From an uncultured Nitrosospira sp. (GTDB taxonomy: Bacteria > Nitrospirota > Nitrospiria > Nitrospirales > Nitrospiraceae): a DNA stretch of 64,000 nucleotides. Positions 32,891 through 40,302 of the stretch are shown one piece after another (the stretch's first letter is position 1; every line of letters begins with the position of its first letter). Made by a program: the position numbers and the translations under genes. The DNA is taken from contig CAADGK010000106.1 in assembly GCA_900696515.1 (NCBI GenBank), positions 1 through 64,000 of the forward strand, given 5' to 3'. Under the pieces are notes generated by a model. The model was not told the DNA's origin. It was given only the letters and a program-made list of their open reading frames with translations, and did no database searches.

Positions 32891-35539
32891 ATGACATCAC
32901 CACGCCCCACTCTGTATTTGATCGACGGCAGTGCGTACATCTATCGCGCCTTTTTTGCCCTGCCGGCCCTTAACAACTCCAAAGGCCTCCAGACCAACGC
33001 GGTTTATGGATTCATGACCACCCTCCTCAAGATCATTCGCGAACATCGACCCGATGGTCTGGTCGTGGCATTCGATGAGAAGGGGCCGACACTCCGGCAC
33101 GAGGAATTCAAAGAGTACAAGGCACAACGCCCACCGATGCCGGACGGGATGAAAGCCCAGATCCCGTACATTCATCGCGTGGTCGAGGCATTGAATATCC
33201 CTGCTGTGAAGCAAGTCGGCTACGAAGCCGATGATCTGATCGGGACCCTAGCTCGCCAAGCAGAACAGGCCGGCCACGATGTCGTCATCGTCACCGGTGA
33301 TAAAGACATGCTCCAACTCATCACGCCGCATGTGCGCATCTACGATCCGGTGAAAGACAAATGGTCCAGCGATGCGGAATGCATCGCCAAGTTCGGCGTC
33401 GAACCAGGACGTGTCGTCGAAATCATGGGATTGATGGGCGACAGCAGCGATAACATCCCTGGAGTAAAAGGCATCGGCGAGAAAACTGCCATGAAACTCA
33501 TCTCTCAGTTTGGAACCATCGATGAGCTGCTTCGCCGCCTCGACGAGGTGACACCCACGCGCATCAAGACCCTTCTGACCGACCAGGCGGACAATGCCAG
33601 ACTGAGCCGGAAACTCGCGACCATCGACACCCAGAGCCCGGTGGAATTCCATCCTGAATCCTATCGGATCAAGCCACCGCATGACGAACAACTTGCCGAG
33701 CTGCTGCGTGAACTCGAGTTCACGTCGCTGCTGAAGAGTCTTCAGCCGTCGCCTAAACAGGCGGAGACGAAAACCCCGGTGCCGGTCATAATTGAAGATG
33801 AGTCAGCCGCACAGCGGTTTGCTGACAGCTTGCCCCAAAACACTCCGCTCGCCGTGCACTGTCTCTTTGCAGGACATCCAGGAGTTCATGCCGATCTGAA
33901 AGGCCTCGCCCTCTCGAGTGGTGGCCACACCACCTTCGTCCCGATCGACATCCACGCCTATATGCGACCGATCATGCCCCTCCTTCACGATCCGCAGAGA
34001 ACCAAAGTGGTGCACGACCTGAAAGCGACCCTCTTGGCCTTACATCGCCTCGGCGTGACCCTGGCACCGCCCTATGTCGACGCCATGGTTGCGGACTATC
34101 TGCTCAATCCCAACCGGCGGGACCATAGCCTTGAAACGATCGCCATGGAGCGGTTGGGTGAGCGGTTTGGATCAGACAAGGGGCAGCAGGCCCAACCGCA
34201 ATCGCTCTTTGATGTCGATACCGGATCCCGAGACCACGCGACAGAAGCCGCTTCATGGTTGGTCAAACTCGAGCCCATCCTGTCGAACCAGTTGACGGAA
34301 CATGGAAGCCTGCCCCTCTTTACCGATGTTGAGATGCCACTCATTCCCGTCCTGGCAGACATCGAACGGAATGGGTTCTTACTCGATGTTGAAGGGCTAC
34401 ACATATTGGGTAAAGAGCTCGAACGGGAACTCGACCGCATGATGGAAACAATCGCCGGGCTCGCCGGGGGTGAGTTCAATATTAATTCACCCAAACAGCT
34501 GACCACGGTCCTATTCGAGAAGCTCGGCCTAAAACCCCTGCGGAAGACCAAGACCGGGTATTCCACCGATGAAGACACCCTGACGCAACTAGCATCGCAA
34601 CATGATCTACCTGCACAAATCCTGAGCTACCGCAGTCTCAGCAAACTCAAGTCCACCTATGTTGATGCCCTTCCGGAACTCGTCAGGCCGGAGACAAAAC
34701 GCCTCCACACATCGTTGAACCAGACCGTTGCCGCAACTGGACGGCTTTCATCGACTGATCCGAATCTGCAGAATATCCCCGTCAAAGGCGACTATGGCCT
34801 GCGTATTCGTGAAGCCTTCATCGTGCCCAAAGGCCATGAACTGCTCTGCGCCGACTACAGCCAGATCGAGCCACGTATCCTCGCCCATCTGTCACAAGAC
34901 CCGAGACTACTCTCAGTCTTTGCCAAGGAAGAAGACATTCACATGGCCACCGCCATGGAAATCTTTGGCCTCCCCTCCAGTCAGATCACGAGAGACATGC
35001 GCCGCGCAGCCAAGACCGTCGTCTTCGGCATCGTCTATGGGATCAGCCCGTTCGGTCTTTCCCAAAACCTCGGCGTGCCCCAGCCGGAGGCAAAGAAATA
35101 CATCGAGACGTTCTTTGAACGGTTCGCCGCCGTACGGGCCTTGATGGATCGCAATATCGCTGAAGGACGAGAAAAGGGCTACACCACCACCATCCTTGGC
35201 CGCCGCCGACCGATTCCTGAATTGCAAAGTGGAGATCCCACACAACGAGGTTTCGGTGAGCGCATGGCCGTCAACAGCCCAATCCAAGGCTCCGCAGCAG
35301 ATTTGATCAAAGTCGCCATGATCAACGTCCACAAGACGCTCCACAAAGAACTCCCCCACGTGAAGATGATCCTCCAAGTCCACGACGAATTGATCTTCGA
35401 AGTGCCGGATCATGATCTGGAGGAAGCAAAGCGGTTGGTGAAGCAGGAGATGGAAGGCATCGGCAAGCAGCTCGGCCTATCAGTCCCACTCAAAGTCGAT
35501 CTCGGCGTCGGCAAAAACTGGCGTGTAGCGCATCCGTAG
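32891..35539 (+). CDS. polA: DNA polymerase I
   Basis: The 882-residue protein has all three parts of PolA. The 5' nuclease (1-290) shows YLIDGSAYIYRAFFA, GYEADDLIGTLA, VTGDKDMLQLI and GDSSDNIPGVKGIGEKTA. The central 3'-5' exonuclease fold (about 300-470) lacks the catalytic DxE pattern where it should be (PLAVHCLFAGHPGVHADLKG), so proofreading is probably lost, as in Taq-type enzymes. The polymerase domain has TGRLSSTDPNLQNIP, motif A DYSQIEPRILAHL, motif B RRAAKTVVFGIVYG and motif C VHDELIFEV. Motif A has Pro where most PolA have Leu. Confidence 0.97.
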   Translation: MTSPRPTLYLIDGSAYIYRAFFALPALNNSKGLQTNAVYGFMTTLLKIIREHRPDGLVVAFDEKGPTLRHEEFKEYKAQRPPMPDGMKAQIPYIHRVVEALNIPAVKQVGYEADDLIGTLARQAEQAGHDVVIVTGDKDMLQLITPHVRIYDPVKDKWSSDAECIAKFGVEPGRVVEIMGLMGDSSDNIPGVKGIGEKTAMKLISQFGTIDELLRRLDEVTPTRIKTLLTDQADNARLSRKLATIDTQSPVEFHPESYRIKPPHDEQLAELLRELEFTSLLKSLQPSPKQAETKTPVPVIIEDESAAQRFADSLPQNTPLAVHCLFAGHPGVHADLKGLALSSGGHTTFVPIDIHAYMRPIMPLLHDPQRTKVVHDLKATLLALHRLGVTLAPPYVDAMVADYLLNPNRRDHSLETIAMERLGERFGSDKGQQAQPQSLFDVDTGSRDHATEAASWLVKLEPILSNQLTEHGSLPLFTDVEMPLIPVLADIERNGFLLDVEGLHILGKELERELDRMMETIAGLAGGEFNINSPKQLTTVLFEKLGLKPLRKTKTGYSTDEDTLTQLASQHDLPAQILSYRSLSKLKSTYVDALPELVRPETKRLHTSLNQTVAATGRLSSTDPNLQNIPVKGDYGLRIREAFIVPKGHELLCADYSQIEPRILAHLSQDPRLLSVFAKEEDIHMATAMEIFGLPSSQITRDMRRAAKTVVFGIVYGISPFGLSQNLGVPQPEAKKYIETFFERFAAVRALMDRNIAEGREKGYTTTILGRRRPIPELQSGDPTQRGFGERMAVNSPIQGSAADLIKVAMINVHKTLHKELPHVKMILQVHDELIFEVPDHDLEEAKRLVKQEMEGIGKQLGLSVPLKVDLGVGKNWRVAHP

Positions 35540-35752
35540 AGTTGCAGTCCGGCGTAATTTCCGTGCAGAATTGCGAAGCTACCGAGATCTTGCCAGGCAA
35601 AGCCGTTACATGAGCGAATCTCTATAAAGACTCCCTATTCCCAGCTTTTAGCCTCAATATTGCATTAGGATCTGACCCCACCAACAACTTTTCCGAAAAG
35701 CCCTGCCCCCCAATCCCACAAACGTGGCCTACCAGGTTTTCGGCATTGTCAA
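35540..35752. other. Spacer at a base-composition boundary
   Basis: After polA the sequence shifts to AT-rich. It contains the string AGGATCTGACCCC (35668-35680), similar to GGGGTCAGAC at 38228-38237 in the opposite orientation; such strings often occur near remnants of REP-type or IS200-like elements, but no transposase is present. Confidence 0.35.
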
Positions 35753-36535
35753 CTATTTAATGTTTTCCTTTCTTAATGAATTCAGTTTGGTTACACCATC
35801 TTGGTCAATTCTAGTTATTGATAAGTCAGCGCATAGATTTTCTTTGTACGATAGGCCTTGCCTCCTGTCGTAAATGCAATATCTGTCACCATTTGTGAGG
35901 ACTACAAATGGCGTCTTTGTTTCATGTGAATAGTTGTATGCTTGCGTTAGCGCCTTTTTGCTATCGGGCGAAAGTGCCCAGTCTGCTTTAACTTCAATGG
36001 TTATCAATGGGTGGTTCTCTTTATCGATTCGTATATCAATATTACCTCGGCGAAATTTAATATCATGAGTTCTTTCATATCCTAAAAGCTCAAAAAGAGA
36101 TGCGACAAGGTCTTCATGATCTCTTTCAAGAGCTTCGGGATCATTCTTGAGTGCGGTCACCTTGCCGACTAAAGGTTTCAGCCAATCAGGTGGCTCAAAG
36201 AAGTGGTTGGCAGCCGTAACTGCTGATGTTCGCCTTATTAAGAAGTCAGGTCTGATATTCCGTGCCAGGCTTTTCGGGTGTTCAGTATTGGCATGGCGAG
36301 CTGCGATACCAAGAAAACCTTCAATCGAGGCAGATTTCTTGCGTTCAAGTGCTGCAAGTAGCTCTTCATCATTAAAATATCGTTGACCCACGAGCCATTG
36401 TGGATTGGAGTTTAAATCAAAGGCTTTTTGAAAATAGCTCTTATCCGTTATTCTAGTTGACAGAGGAGAATTCAAAAAATAGACGTATCGGTATGGTCGT
36501 CTATCTAGTCTCGGTTTTTCTCTATCCCATCCCAA
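35753..36535 (-). pseudogene. C-terminal part of a frameshifted EVE-like/PD-(D/E)XK nuclease gene
   Basis: This frame encodes ~260 residues. It begins inside a PUA/EVE-like domain (RRPYRYVYFLNSP, SYFQKAFDLN, WLVGQRYF). It ends in a nuclease domain: Glu in EDLVASLFELLGYE, NIDIRID, ITIEVKADW with E-V-K, and AYNYSHETKTPFVVLTNGDRYCIYDRR, the pattern of HSDR_N-like PD-(D/E)XK enzymes. The frame is open upstream of the first Met and encodes ICFFVDCNDGRLQEYLGW in continuity, while the N-terminal half lies in the other frame. The DNA is markedly AT-rich compared with its neighbours, suggesting transfer. Possible original role: modification-dependent restriction. Confidence 0.7.
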
Positions 36536-36834
36536 ATACTCCTGAAGCCTTCCGTCATTGCAATCGACAAAGAAGCAAATCTGAAGATTTGTACAACTCT
36601 TTTGTTTTTGACATCTATCACATATTCGCCAGCCTTGAGCTCCACCAGATCTGCTTTATTTTTTTCATTCGCACCCCAAATATAAATGTCATTTCCTCTG
36701 GGGAAAAATCTCTTTAGTTCATTCTGATCCTTCAGTGACAGAAATTGGCATATTTCTTCGACTGTATGGGGCTTATCTAAGGTCTTCTCTCTGTTTTGGG
36801 AAGATGACCCAGCTGCTACAAAATAGATTCCCAT
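36505..36834 (-). pseudogene. N-terminal part of the same frameshifted EVE-like nuclease gene
   Basis: This 109-codon frame starts MGIYFVAAGSSSQNREKTLD and continues with ELKRFFPRGNDIYIWGAN and ELKAGEYVIDVKNKRVVQIF, which reads like the first strands of an EVE/PUA-like domain that positions a base-binding pocket. After about QIFRF the frame leaves sense and stops at 36505, whereas the other frame carries on with FFVDCNDGRLQEYL. A single indel between roughly 36540 and 36585 would restore one ~375-residue protein. It may be a real mutation or a sequencing error. Confidence 0.65.
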
Positions 36835-36992
36835 AATGTCTATTTATTAGGCCGACCTAACCCTGATGTCTAAATCGTTTCGGCAAACGCGGCAGAAGCT
36901 GCTTGCGAATCTGAGGCCGTGCGTAGGATAGGCCACGCATCCATGGAAAACCGGCTAGGGCAAGGACCAAAGCTAGGCCGTCAGTTACCTCT

Positions 36993-37397
36993 CTAAGATC
37001 TTGGCAAGTCGGTGTACTTGGTTGCCTTGCCCTTCGACAACTCGACCGGATATTTCTTTGCGTTGATTTCCAGTTTTTGCTCAATCGCTGCAAGAGGATC
37101 AATCCCTGTCGCGTGGCAAAACAAGAACGCAAAGGTCAATACATCTGCTACCTCATGCGCCAGCGCTTGTTTACACTCGAGATCCTGCAGATAGGCACTG
37201 ACCTCCTGGTCTGACTTCCATAGTAGAAGTTCTTGGAGCTCCGCAGCCTCAATAGAGAGAGCCGTCGTCAGGTTTCGCGGGGTATTGAACTGTTCCCAAT
37301 CTCGCTCGTCCCGAAAGGCAATCATTTTCTTAATGAGGAGTTGTAGCTTGTCCACAGTGTGCTCCAAGTGTTCAATCCATCTAGGCGATGCCGTCAA
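36993..37397 (-). CDS. MazG-like nucleotide pyrophosphohydrolase
   Basis: The 134-residue protein has the all-alpha NTP pyrophosphatase pattern: RDWEQFNTPRNLTTALSIEAAELQELLLW (ExxE motif) and ALAHEVADVLTFAFLFCHATG (ExxD motif), with a C-terminal KYPVELSKGKATKY. It resembles dCTP/MazG-type house-cleaning enzymes that hydrolyse non-canonical nucleotides. The start appears to be TTG; an ATG farther in (MIAFRDERDW) would remove a helix. It flanks the AT-rich nuclease remnant. Confidence 0.85.
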   Translation of the reverse strand: MTASPRWIEHLEHTVDKLQLLIKKMIAFRDERDWEQFNTPRNLTTALSIEAAELQELLLWKSDQEVSAYLQDLECKQALAHEVADVLTFAFLFCHATGIDPLAAIEQKLEINAKKYPVELSKGKATKYTDLPRS

Positions 37398-37469
37398 GGC
37401 TATGCTGAGTGCGGGGAGGTGTCAAGGCCATTAGCTTCCATGAGCTGCAGTCCATGTAAGAACCAGCTA

Positions 37470-37498
37470 TTGACGCTATCCTACCTGATTGCTATCAC
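37470..37498 (+). promoter_or_regulatory. Promoter of the first (decayed) RHH antitoxin module
   Basis: TTGACG (37470-37475) and TATCAC (37493-37498) are 17 bases apart. The same arrangement stands before the second copy of the module at 39135, so the promoter was duplicated with the genes. Confidence 0.6.
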
Positions 37499-37524
37499 TG
37501 AACATAACCGACAAGAGGAGCTTC

Positions 37525-37758
37525 ATGGCACAAGTGCTCGTCCGAGAGTTATCTGATCAGATCGTCAAACGGCTGAAAAATCGCGCGAAAGAACATGGTC
37601 GGTCGTTGCAAGCGGAAGTGAAAATAATTCTTGAAGAAGCAGTACCGGACTATGAGCAAGCCCGGAAACGAATTCATGCACTGCGAAACAAACTCAAGCG
37701 ATCCGGCAAAATGTTCTGCGACAGCGCCGACCTGATCCGAGAGGACCGCGATCGGTGA
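37525..37758 (+). CDS. FitA-like ribbon-helix-helix antitoxin, copy 1
   Basis: The 77-residue protein has an N-terminal ribbon-helix-helix (QVLVRELSDQIVKRLKNRAKEHGRSLQAEV) and a C-terminal toxin-binding tail with CDSADLIREDRDR. It is about 85% identical to the antitoxin at 39205. Here the toxin gene that should follow is only a short remnant, so the antitoxin is orphaned. It may still regulate its own promoter or neutralise the toxin of copy 2. Confidence 0.88.
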   Translation: MAQVLVRELSDQIVKRLKNRAKEHGRSLQAEVKIILEEAVPDYEQARKRIHALRNKLKRSGKMFCDSADLIREDRDR

Positions 37759-37806
37759 GACGCTATGTTGTCAATGCCAGTGAGGCGATCAAGTAGTTTA
37801 GCCCAT
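37755..37806 (+). pseudogene. Remnant of a PIN-domain toxin gene
   Basis: Starting at the GTG that overlaps the antitoxin stop, the sequence encodes MRRYVVNASEAIK, then a stop (TAG) and a few more matching codons. The intact copy at 39435 reads MKRYVIDASVAIKWF. Beyond about 37806 the similarity is lost until the DUF2007 gene, so most of the toxin has been deleted. The catalytic Asp of IDAS is also replaced by Asn. Confidence 0.8.
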
Positions 37807-37927
37807 GATATAGTTCTGAGCCGGAGGGAACACCCTTCCCTGCGTCTCTAACACTGCATAGCCATGCATCAAGTTCCAGCGCGATGCTCGGCCATCGAAA
37901 CGATTCTTCTGTGTGGATGTCCTCTCG

Positions 37928-38215
37928 ATGAGAAAAGTCTTCGTCTCTCAGCATTTATTTGAAGTTGAAATGCGCAAGGAGCGGCTTGAGCAAGCCGGCA
38001 TCTCCTGCACGATCAAAAACCAGCGTTCGGCTGGCCTGGCCGGAGAGATTCCCTTTATGGAGATTTTCCCTGAACTGTGGGTCATCCAAGACGAAGACGC
38101 TTATCGGGCACGACAAGTCCTCGACGAAGAGCTGATTACGCAGCCCTCAAACTCAAGCGCTTGGGTATGCACCGGCTGTGGCGAACAGCACGAGCGTCAA
38201 TTTTCTGAATGTTGA
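37928..38215 (+). CDS. DUF2007-type protein, copy 1, truncated at the zinc ribbon
   Basis: The 95-residue protein starts MRKVFVSQHLFEVEMRKERLEQAGISCTIKNQ and has GEIPFMEIFPELWVIQDEDAYRARQVL, the DUF2007 pattern (single alpha/beta domain, often called putative signal-transducing). Only the first CxxC pair of the terminal zinc ribbon is kept: after QFSEC a TGA stands where copy 2 (39952) has the TGG of CWKCG. The protein is therefore shortened by a nonsense change, and part of the decaying module. Confidence 0.7.
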   Translation: MRKVFVSQHLFEVEMRKERLEQAGISCTIKNQRSAGLAGEIPFMEIFPELWVIQDEDAYRARQVLDEELITQPSNSSAWVCTGCGEQHERQFSEC

Positions 38216-39134: not shown

Positions 39135-39163
39135 TTGACGCTATACTACCTGCTTGCTATCAT
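39135..39163 (+). promoter_or_regulatory. Promoter of the second antitoxin-PIN-DUF2007 module
   Basis: A -35 box TTGACG (39135-39140) and a -10 box TATCAT (39158-39163) are separated by 17 bases, about 40 bases before the antitoxin start. The corresponding boxes in copy 1 are at 37470 and 37493. Confidence 0.65.
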
Positions 39164-39204
39164 TTCGCTATCATTACACACACTCGCCACACAAGAGGAA
39201 TCCC

Positions 39205-39438
39205 ATGGCACAAGTGCTGGTTCGAGAGTTATCTGACCAGGTTGTTAAACGGCTGAAAAAACGCGCGAAGGAACACGGACGGTCGTTGCAGGCAGAGGTT
39301 AAGACGATTCTCGAGGAAGCGGTGCCGGACTATGAGCAGGCCTGGAAACGAATTGCGACGCTGCGAGACACACTCACACGATCCGGCAAAACGTTCAGCG
39401 ACAGCGCCGACCTCATCCGAGAGGACCGCGATCGGTGA
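39205..39438 (+). CDS. FitA-like ribbon-helix-helix antitoxin, copy 2
   Basis: The 77-residue protein has an RHH DNA-binding region (QVLVRELSDQVVKRLKKRAKEHGRSLQAEV) and a C-terminal segment KTFSDSADLIREDRDR that should plug the PIN active site. An AGAGGAA ribosome binding site precedes the ATG. Its stop overlaps the toxin's GTG start by four bases, the classical coupled layout. It should bind operators in its own promoter. Confidence 0.9.
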   Translation: MAQVLVRELSDQVVKRLKKRAKEHGRSLQAEVKTILEEAVPDYEQAWKRIATLRDTLTRSGKTFSDSADLIREDRDR

Positions 39439-39866
39439 AACGCTATGTCATCGATGCCAGTGTGGCGATCAAGTGGTTTGTCCCGGAAATCCATTCAGAC
39501 GCAGCCCTTCGAGCTCAGCATAGTGGAACACACCTCCACATCCCTGCCTTTATGGTCTTGGAGTTGGGCAACGTCTTGGCTAAAAAGATTCGGCGCAACG
39601 AACTGACACCCAGAGATGGAGAGACCATTCTCAAAGAGCTCAAGCATCTCCCTCTTCAACGCCATGCCGATGCACGTTTGTTTCCCGCAGCCTATCAGCT
39701 TGCACTAGACACTCGGCGAAGTCTTTATGATTGCCTCTATCTCGCCTTGGCTGAAACTGTCGATGGCATCATGGTCACGGCCGACCACAAGTTTTTTGCC
39801 AGCCTGACGAACAGACCCTATGGAAGGAGGGTGATGTGGGTGGAAGACCTTCCAGCCCTAACGTAA
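39435..39866 (+). CDS. PIN-domain toxin (VapC/FitB type)
   Basis: The 143-residue PIN protein has the acidic active-site residues in the expected places: Asp7 (VIDASVAIKW), Glu in VLELGNVLAKK, Asp in SLYDCLYLALAE and Asp in MVTADHKFF. PIN toxins are Mg-dependent ribonucleases. The start is GTG, overlapping the antitoxin stop. A DUF2007 gene follows 85 bases later, as in the decayed copy at 37525. Confidence 0.92.
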   Translation: MKRYVIDASVAIKWFVPEIHSDAALRAQHSGTHLHIPAFMVLELGNVLAKKIRRNELTPRDGETILKELKHLPLQRHADARLFPAAYQLALDTRRSLYDCLYLALAETVDGIMVTADHKFFASLTNRPYGRRVMWVEDLPALT

Positions 39867-39951
39867 TTTACAACTGGAACAGGCTCCCTTCGCAGCCTCC
39901 CCACTGCTGCATAAACCAGCATCACATTCCAACTATGCGGATGTGCATTCG

Positions 39952-40269
39952 ATGAAACAAGTCTTCGTGTCTCAACATCTCTTTGAAGTTGAAATGCGCA
40001 AGGAGCGGCTTGAACAGGCCGGCATCTCGAGCCTGATCAAGAACCAGCGTACAACTGGCCTGGCCGGAGAGATTCCTTTTACCGAGGTGTTCCCAGAACT
40101 GTGGGTGGTCCAAGACGAGGAGTATGATCGGGCACGGCGCTTACTTGGCGATGGCCTCGTGGCATTATCATCGAACCAAGAAGGTTGGATCTGTCCGGGA
40201 TGCGACGAATGCCACGAAAGCCAGTTTGCGACCTGCTGGAAGTGTGGCCTGGAACAACCATCTGCATAA
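39952..40269 (+). CDS. DUF2007-type protein with C-terminal zinc ribbon, copy 2
   Basis: The 105-residue protein has the DUF2007 domain (MKQVFVSQHLFEVEMRKERLEQAGISSLIKNQ, then FTEVFPELWVVQDEEYDRARRLL) and an intact zinc ribbon: CPGCDECHESQFATCWKCG. The function is unknown; these proteins are called putative signal-transducing only from their fold. It follows the PIN toxin in both copies of the module, so it may be a functional third component. A GTG at 39943 is an alternative start. Confidence 0.82.
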   Translation: MKQVFVSQHLFEVEMRKERLEQAGISSLIKNQRTTGLAGEIPFTEVFPELWVVQDEEYDRARRLLGDGLVALSSNQEGWICPGCDECHESQFATCWKCGLEQPSA

Positions 40270-40302
40270 CCTCTCCGACACTCCCTCCTAATACTTACAC
40301 CA

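Follow-up and report, generated by a model that had tools for sequence, protein, structure and literature searches.

In the window, as the whole 64,000-nucleotide stretch of DNA analyzed here is called, polA is followed by a variable segment (35540-37433) that contains two minus-strand genes: a gene (35753-36834), interrupted by a frameshift, for a predicted reader of modified bases joined to a nuclease, and, 158 nt upstream of it, an intact MazG-like (dCTP pyrophosphatase 1-like) gene (36993-37397) that is proposed as its partner. By blastn against the polA-downstream regions of 20 relatives, no counterpart of this segment was identified, and the sequence after polA differs among these relatives. 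The GC content was 0.408 for the reader-nuclease gene, 0.496 for the MazG gene and 0.561 for polA. The absence of the segment from the 20 relatives and the low GC content support the transfer suggested in an earlier note on this DNA, the gene apparently having been acquired horizontally as part of a mobile segment that follows polA.

In a close relative, G076, the same place after polA is taken by a gene for an OLD-like AAA protein of 622 residues (L093, 704-2572), which resembles the defense ATPases of the Old/GajA/PtuA type. Three genomes of the genus carry copies of the polA 3' tail (window 35465-35538) downstream of polA (L103, 11667-11739; L110, 3885-3958; L111, 1617-1730), which suggests, on the sequence, that the end of polA is a reused integration site. 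Next to the variable segment, the stretches 37434-38214 and 39148-40270 of the window appear to be tandem copies of one unit, made up of a VapB-like antitoxin gene and a small conserved gene; only the second copy includes a VapC-like toxin gene (39435-39866).

Reading frames and the intact relative

The reader-nuclease gene is divided between two overlapping minus-strand frames, ORF1 (36505-36834) and ORF2 (35753-36535). ORF1 runs from MGIYFVAAG to VVQIFRF, and its frame is lost afterwards, as confirmed by re-reading in all frames. The frame of ORF2 is open back to about 36652; where ORF1 turns to nonsense, it continues with CFFVDCNDGRLQEYLGWDREKPRLDRRPYRYVYFLNSP... and CFFVDCNDGRLQEYLGW... 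A net -1 shift at about 36577-36580, by lesion or by sequencing error, is required to join 36834-36577 with 36577-35753, and this is the only lesion, both frames being intact apart from it. The 5' part of the gene (36577-36834, within ORF1) encodes the N-terminal half of the reader (residues 1-86, aligned to residues 1-90 of the intact relative L002), and the C-terminal half of the reader is encoded by 36250-36577, as located by alignment to L002 and by a match to the family profile A9 at 36341-36601. The nuclease domain follows at 35753-36200.

The homologue L002 (242-1332), from a Hyphomicrobiales MAG/bin, is 45% identical to the window protein over residues 1-357 and carries VVRIFRFTFWFETNDTRLQEFIGW across the junction. 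Because L002 reads the junction in one frame and gap-free, the two frames belong, on this alignment, to one gene that carries a single net -1 shift near 36577, and do not overlap by chance. The frameshifted gene described in the earlier note is thus borne out, including its coordinates, and L002 provides a homologue that is intact across the junction, of the kind that the note called for. Neither of the observations that were named there as contrary to a fusion, homologues keeping the two halves as separate genes or an N-terminal part without a PUA-like fold, was made. The linker of L002 contains a scaffold gap of 10 N, and we infer its connection to the nuclease from order and spacing.

The copy in the window is probably inactive, since the frame shifts inside the reader, unless an error in the sequence accounts for the shift. 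Programmed ribosomal frameshifting, by which both frames would be joined in the cell to give a low level of enzyme, agrees with the single lesion between otherwise intact frames, but is very improbable, because inspection of the junction revealed no canonical slippery heptamer and L002 has no shift; it was set aside on the former ground.

The gene is single-copy in its genome, and a search of 78 other genomes of the genus gave no match. With six peptides as queries, a scan of 84,980 genomes identified L002 as the sole full-length relative. A second reader of the L002 type was detected in none of the genus, phylum and order searches; tblastn of plasmids and phages with the window protein gave no significant match, and scans of IMG/VR with the window or L002 protein or with the nuclease families gave nothing. 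A search with the reader profile added one further member of the wider reader family, L127, from the same phylum.

The reader and nuclease domains

For the N-terminal domain (the first 190 residues), no family was named by Pfam, PADLOC or NCBIfam. The Pfam EVE family (PF01878) matched neither the window protein nor L002, and sub-threshold matches (E about 0.001) appeared only in the family members L122 and L123. A reader consensus was employed solely as a query for fetching real sequences, on which all the comparisons rest. The proteins obtained with this type of query formed a plasmid family, in which HNH endonuclease and restriction endonuclease are frequent annotations. By hhalign, the N-terminal domains of the window protein and L002 aligned with twelve plasmid readers at a probability of 96.6% (E 5.5e-10, 164 columns), compared with 0.3% for a control with the reversed profile. 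A reader HMM built without the window protein and L002 recovered both (E 1e-6 and 1.7e-5). The A9 profile, which includes window rows, matched the window at E 2.7e-15 and the N-terminal domain of Thermococcus gammatolerans McrB (TgMcrB; 6p0f) at E 6.4e-9.

The reader domain of L002 was modeled with AF2 from an alignment of 20 sequences (pLDDT 89.1, pTM 0.84); a model from three rows (pLDDT 41) was not used. The L002 model exhibits a five-stranded PUA-type core that matches the solved EVE and YTH structures. Its best solved match was the N-terminal domain of TgMcrB (6p0f/6p0g; Z 14.7 over 156 residues, 2.7 A), with the EVE protein PH1033 at Z 10.5, VcaM4I at Z 9.3 and YTH domains at Z about 9; TgMcrB, EVE, ASCH and YTH chains fill the list of structural matches. 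The model, the structural matches and the profile matches altogether support the assignment of the N-terminal domain as a PUA-superfamily reader, in agreement with the EVE/PUA-like module and the PUA-type fold expected in the earlier note. Since Pfam EVE scores appear in only two family members and stay below the threshold there, the safest name is EVE/YTH-like, PUA superfamily. Elsewhere this reader precedes other C-terminal domains, among them HNH and Mrr_cat, in fusion proteins, and it is also fused to an McrB-like ATPase that adjoins a PD-(D/E)XK gene.

The HSDR_N-like nuclease proposed for the C-terminal part was supported by the match of the last 140 residues of the protein to HSDR_N_2 (PF13588; E 7.3e-7, 29.7 bits against a curated cut-off of 25), the domain family being that of PF13588 and PF04313. 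Within the alignment of a four-member subfamily, the PD-(D/E)XK residues D52, E66 and K68 (E-x-K) and Q83 and Y87 (Q-x-x-x-Y) are invariant in all four homologues. The score for Mrr_cat (PF04471) was 17.9 bits, below its cut-off of 21. The nuclease module is shared (E about 1e-37) by L004 and L005, two proteins from the same phylum, which possess an N-terminal domain different from the reader of the window protein and L002; therefore, the N-terminal partner of the nuclease module is of more than one kind. This N-terminal domain of L004 and L005 resembles the part preceding the Mrr_cat nuclease in L050, and a second N-terminal domain ("YVAIGW") is common to nucleases of the HsdR-N type (L004, L005) and the Mrr type (L050).

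Enzyme type and comparison with known systems

Reader and nuclease are in one chain in both the window gene and L002. McrBC consists of an AAA+ GTPase, McrB, with an McrC partner; the window gene lacks an AAA+ domain, and no such domain was recognized in the neighboring ORFs. Together with the low Mrr_cat score, this agrees with the view of the earlier note that the enzyme is neither a standard McrBC nor a standard Mrr; the note also had the architecture and the likely function right. From polA to the toxin-antitoxin genes, inspection of the ORFs by eye revealed no recognizable methyltransferase. We consider that the gene encodes, or once encoded, a single-chain modification-dependent (type IV-like) restriction endonuclease, acquired with or beside MazG, and give this whole explanation a probability of roughly 70%. 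The EVE/YTH-like domain would bind a modified base in double-stranded DNA, probably flipped out of the helix, and the PD-(D/E)XK domain of the HsdR-N type would then cut nearby; for PUA-superfamily readers, base flipping and nearby cleavage are both supported (PMC7641849, PMC7897488). The DNA target, and cleavage that depends on modification, we infer.

The same domains might alternatively form an RNA-directed nuclease, in which the reader recognizes modified RNA and tRNA or mRNA is attacked, leading to cell arrest during infection. The HsdR-N nuclease fold, however, acts on DNA in its known members, and a dNTP-hydrolyzing partner also points to DNA. YTH and many EVE domains do bind RNA (PMC7897488, PMC7641849), and RNA readers are included among the structural matches, but the TgMcrB domain, which is the nearest structural match, reportedly binds 6mA DNA (PMC12707154), and we regard an RNA target as improbable.

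With TgMcrB, the proposed DNA endonuclease shares the fold and the profile of the reader domain, as described above, but TgMcrB has its own AAA+ GTPase and works with McrC, whereas the window gene encodes no NTPase and joins its nuclease to the reader within one chain. VcaM4I, described as a 5mC/5hmC reader, and other EVE-HNH endonucleases (PMC7897488) resemble the window gene in having a PUA-superfamily reader first and a nuclease second within a single chain; they differ in that the nuclease is of the HNH type instead of HsdR-N PD-(D/E)XK, and the reader of the window gene is nearer to the TgMcrB type. Bell et al. 2020 (PMC7641849) predicted EVE-PD(D/E)XK fusions with the same core architecture of a reader with PD-(D/E)XK, and MazG is not mentioned in the main text of that paper. 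The N-terminal nuclease of type I HsdR belongs to the same domain family; unlike HsdR, the window gene has no helicase domain, and HsdM and HsdS were not recognized among its neighbors. Reader-nuclease fusions are already known, and the recurrent MazG partner is the addition made here.

Pairing with MazG and its proposed role

The window MazG gene matched PF12643 (E 1.8e-13), and its nearest solved chains were dCTP pyrophosphatase 1 (PDB 2a3q/6sqw; E 2.8e-22 over 108 residues); PADLOC gave no match for it. The catalytic acidic residues E-x-x-E / E-x-x-D are invariant and kept, as in DCTPP1/RS21-C6 and bacterial MazG. In contrast to DCTPP1 and bacterial MazG at a housekeeping locus, the window MazG is encoded next to a restriction gene, within a mobile segment.

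The same gene order was observed elsewhere. On plasmids of Peribacillus and Nocardiopsis, a gene annotated as MazG-like or nucleotide pyrophosphohydrolase directly precedes reader-HNH genes. Of 21 viral contigs retrieved with MazG sequence as the only query, 10 have a same-strand ORF for a reader-nuclease immediately downstream of MazG. Conversely, MazG is directly upstream in nine of 13 viral contigs that were outside the MazG-fetched set or first reached through reader sequences, a count in which some queries included readers first found beside MazG and which overstates the number of independent cases, because some contigs are near-identical. On bacterial plasmids, five of the six readers have MazG directly upstream, in three cases as a remnant, and in L127 the MazG and the reader protein have overlapping ends. 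None of the haloarchaeal reader loci examined carries MazG, and the 241 nt available upstream of the L002 gene are too short to reveal one.

On this conservation of gene order, the MazG gene is probably part of the system, and it likely arrived in the window jointly with the reader-nuclease gene. The earlier note placed the MazG-like gene correctly but took it for a neutral flank, which does not hold for a gene that shares the variable segment and is a recurrent partner elsewhere. The two genes may instead have arrived separately, since they are 158 nt apart, against about 0-50 nt elsewhere, and differ in GC content. The endonuclease would then act as proposed with MazG as an unrelated neighbor, in a site that collects mobile genes; the varied cargo at the polA 3' site and the sporadic presence of MazG in the genus (six of 36 other genomes, at most 48% identical), where it has other partners, agree with such an arrangement. 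We consider it possible but rather unlikely, as the same gene order and strand recur with homologous readers in several phyla, and both genes are missing from all 20 relatives compared.

As for the role of a MazG partner, a reader-nuclease would become a danger to its host if modified nucleotides, whether they stem from salvage, damage or a resident phage, were incorporated into host DNA. We propose that MazG hydrolyzes modified dNTPs (e.g. 5-substituted dCTP) and keeps them out of host DNA, which would stay free of the nuclease target; it may also deprive phages of modified dNTPs. MazG and the EVE/YTH-reader-nuclease could, quite tentatively, constitute a two-gene restriction module with self-protection via the nucleotide pool instead of a host-marking methyltransferase, the nuclease half being interchangeable (HNH, Mrr-like, HsdR-N-like and others). 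The MutT-type pyrophosphohydrolase noted earlier beside SauUSI-type enzymes (PMC7641849) fits this idea of nucleotide-pool protection. As a point against it, a MazG of the dCTP type would not serve a 6mA-binding reader such as that of TgMcrB. In a partial literature collection, no paper mentioning both MazG and type IV restriction was found. If the idea is correct, the recurrent MazG partner would turn nucleotide-pool sanitation into a kind of self-protection in restriction that can be tested, and a MazG neighbor provides a simple criterion for finding more such systems.

The link between MazG and the reader is not exclusive, MazG being paired with other defense-type genes as well. In two genomes of the genus (L184, L188), MazG is followed after 4-13 nt by a large ORF that encodes a helicase-type motor, possibly another MazG-coupled defense pair, and MazG is thus a wider companion of mobile defense genes. 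The helicase ORF of L184, upon testing, matched a Schlafen group 3 helicase.
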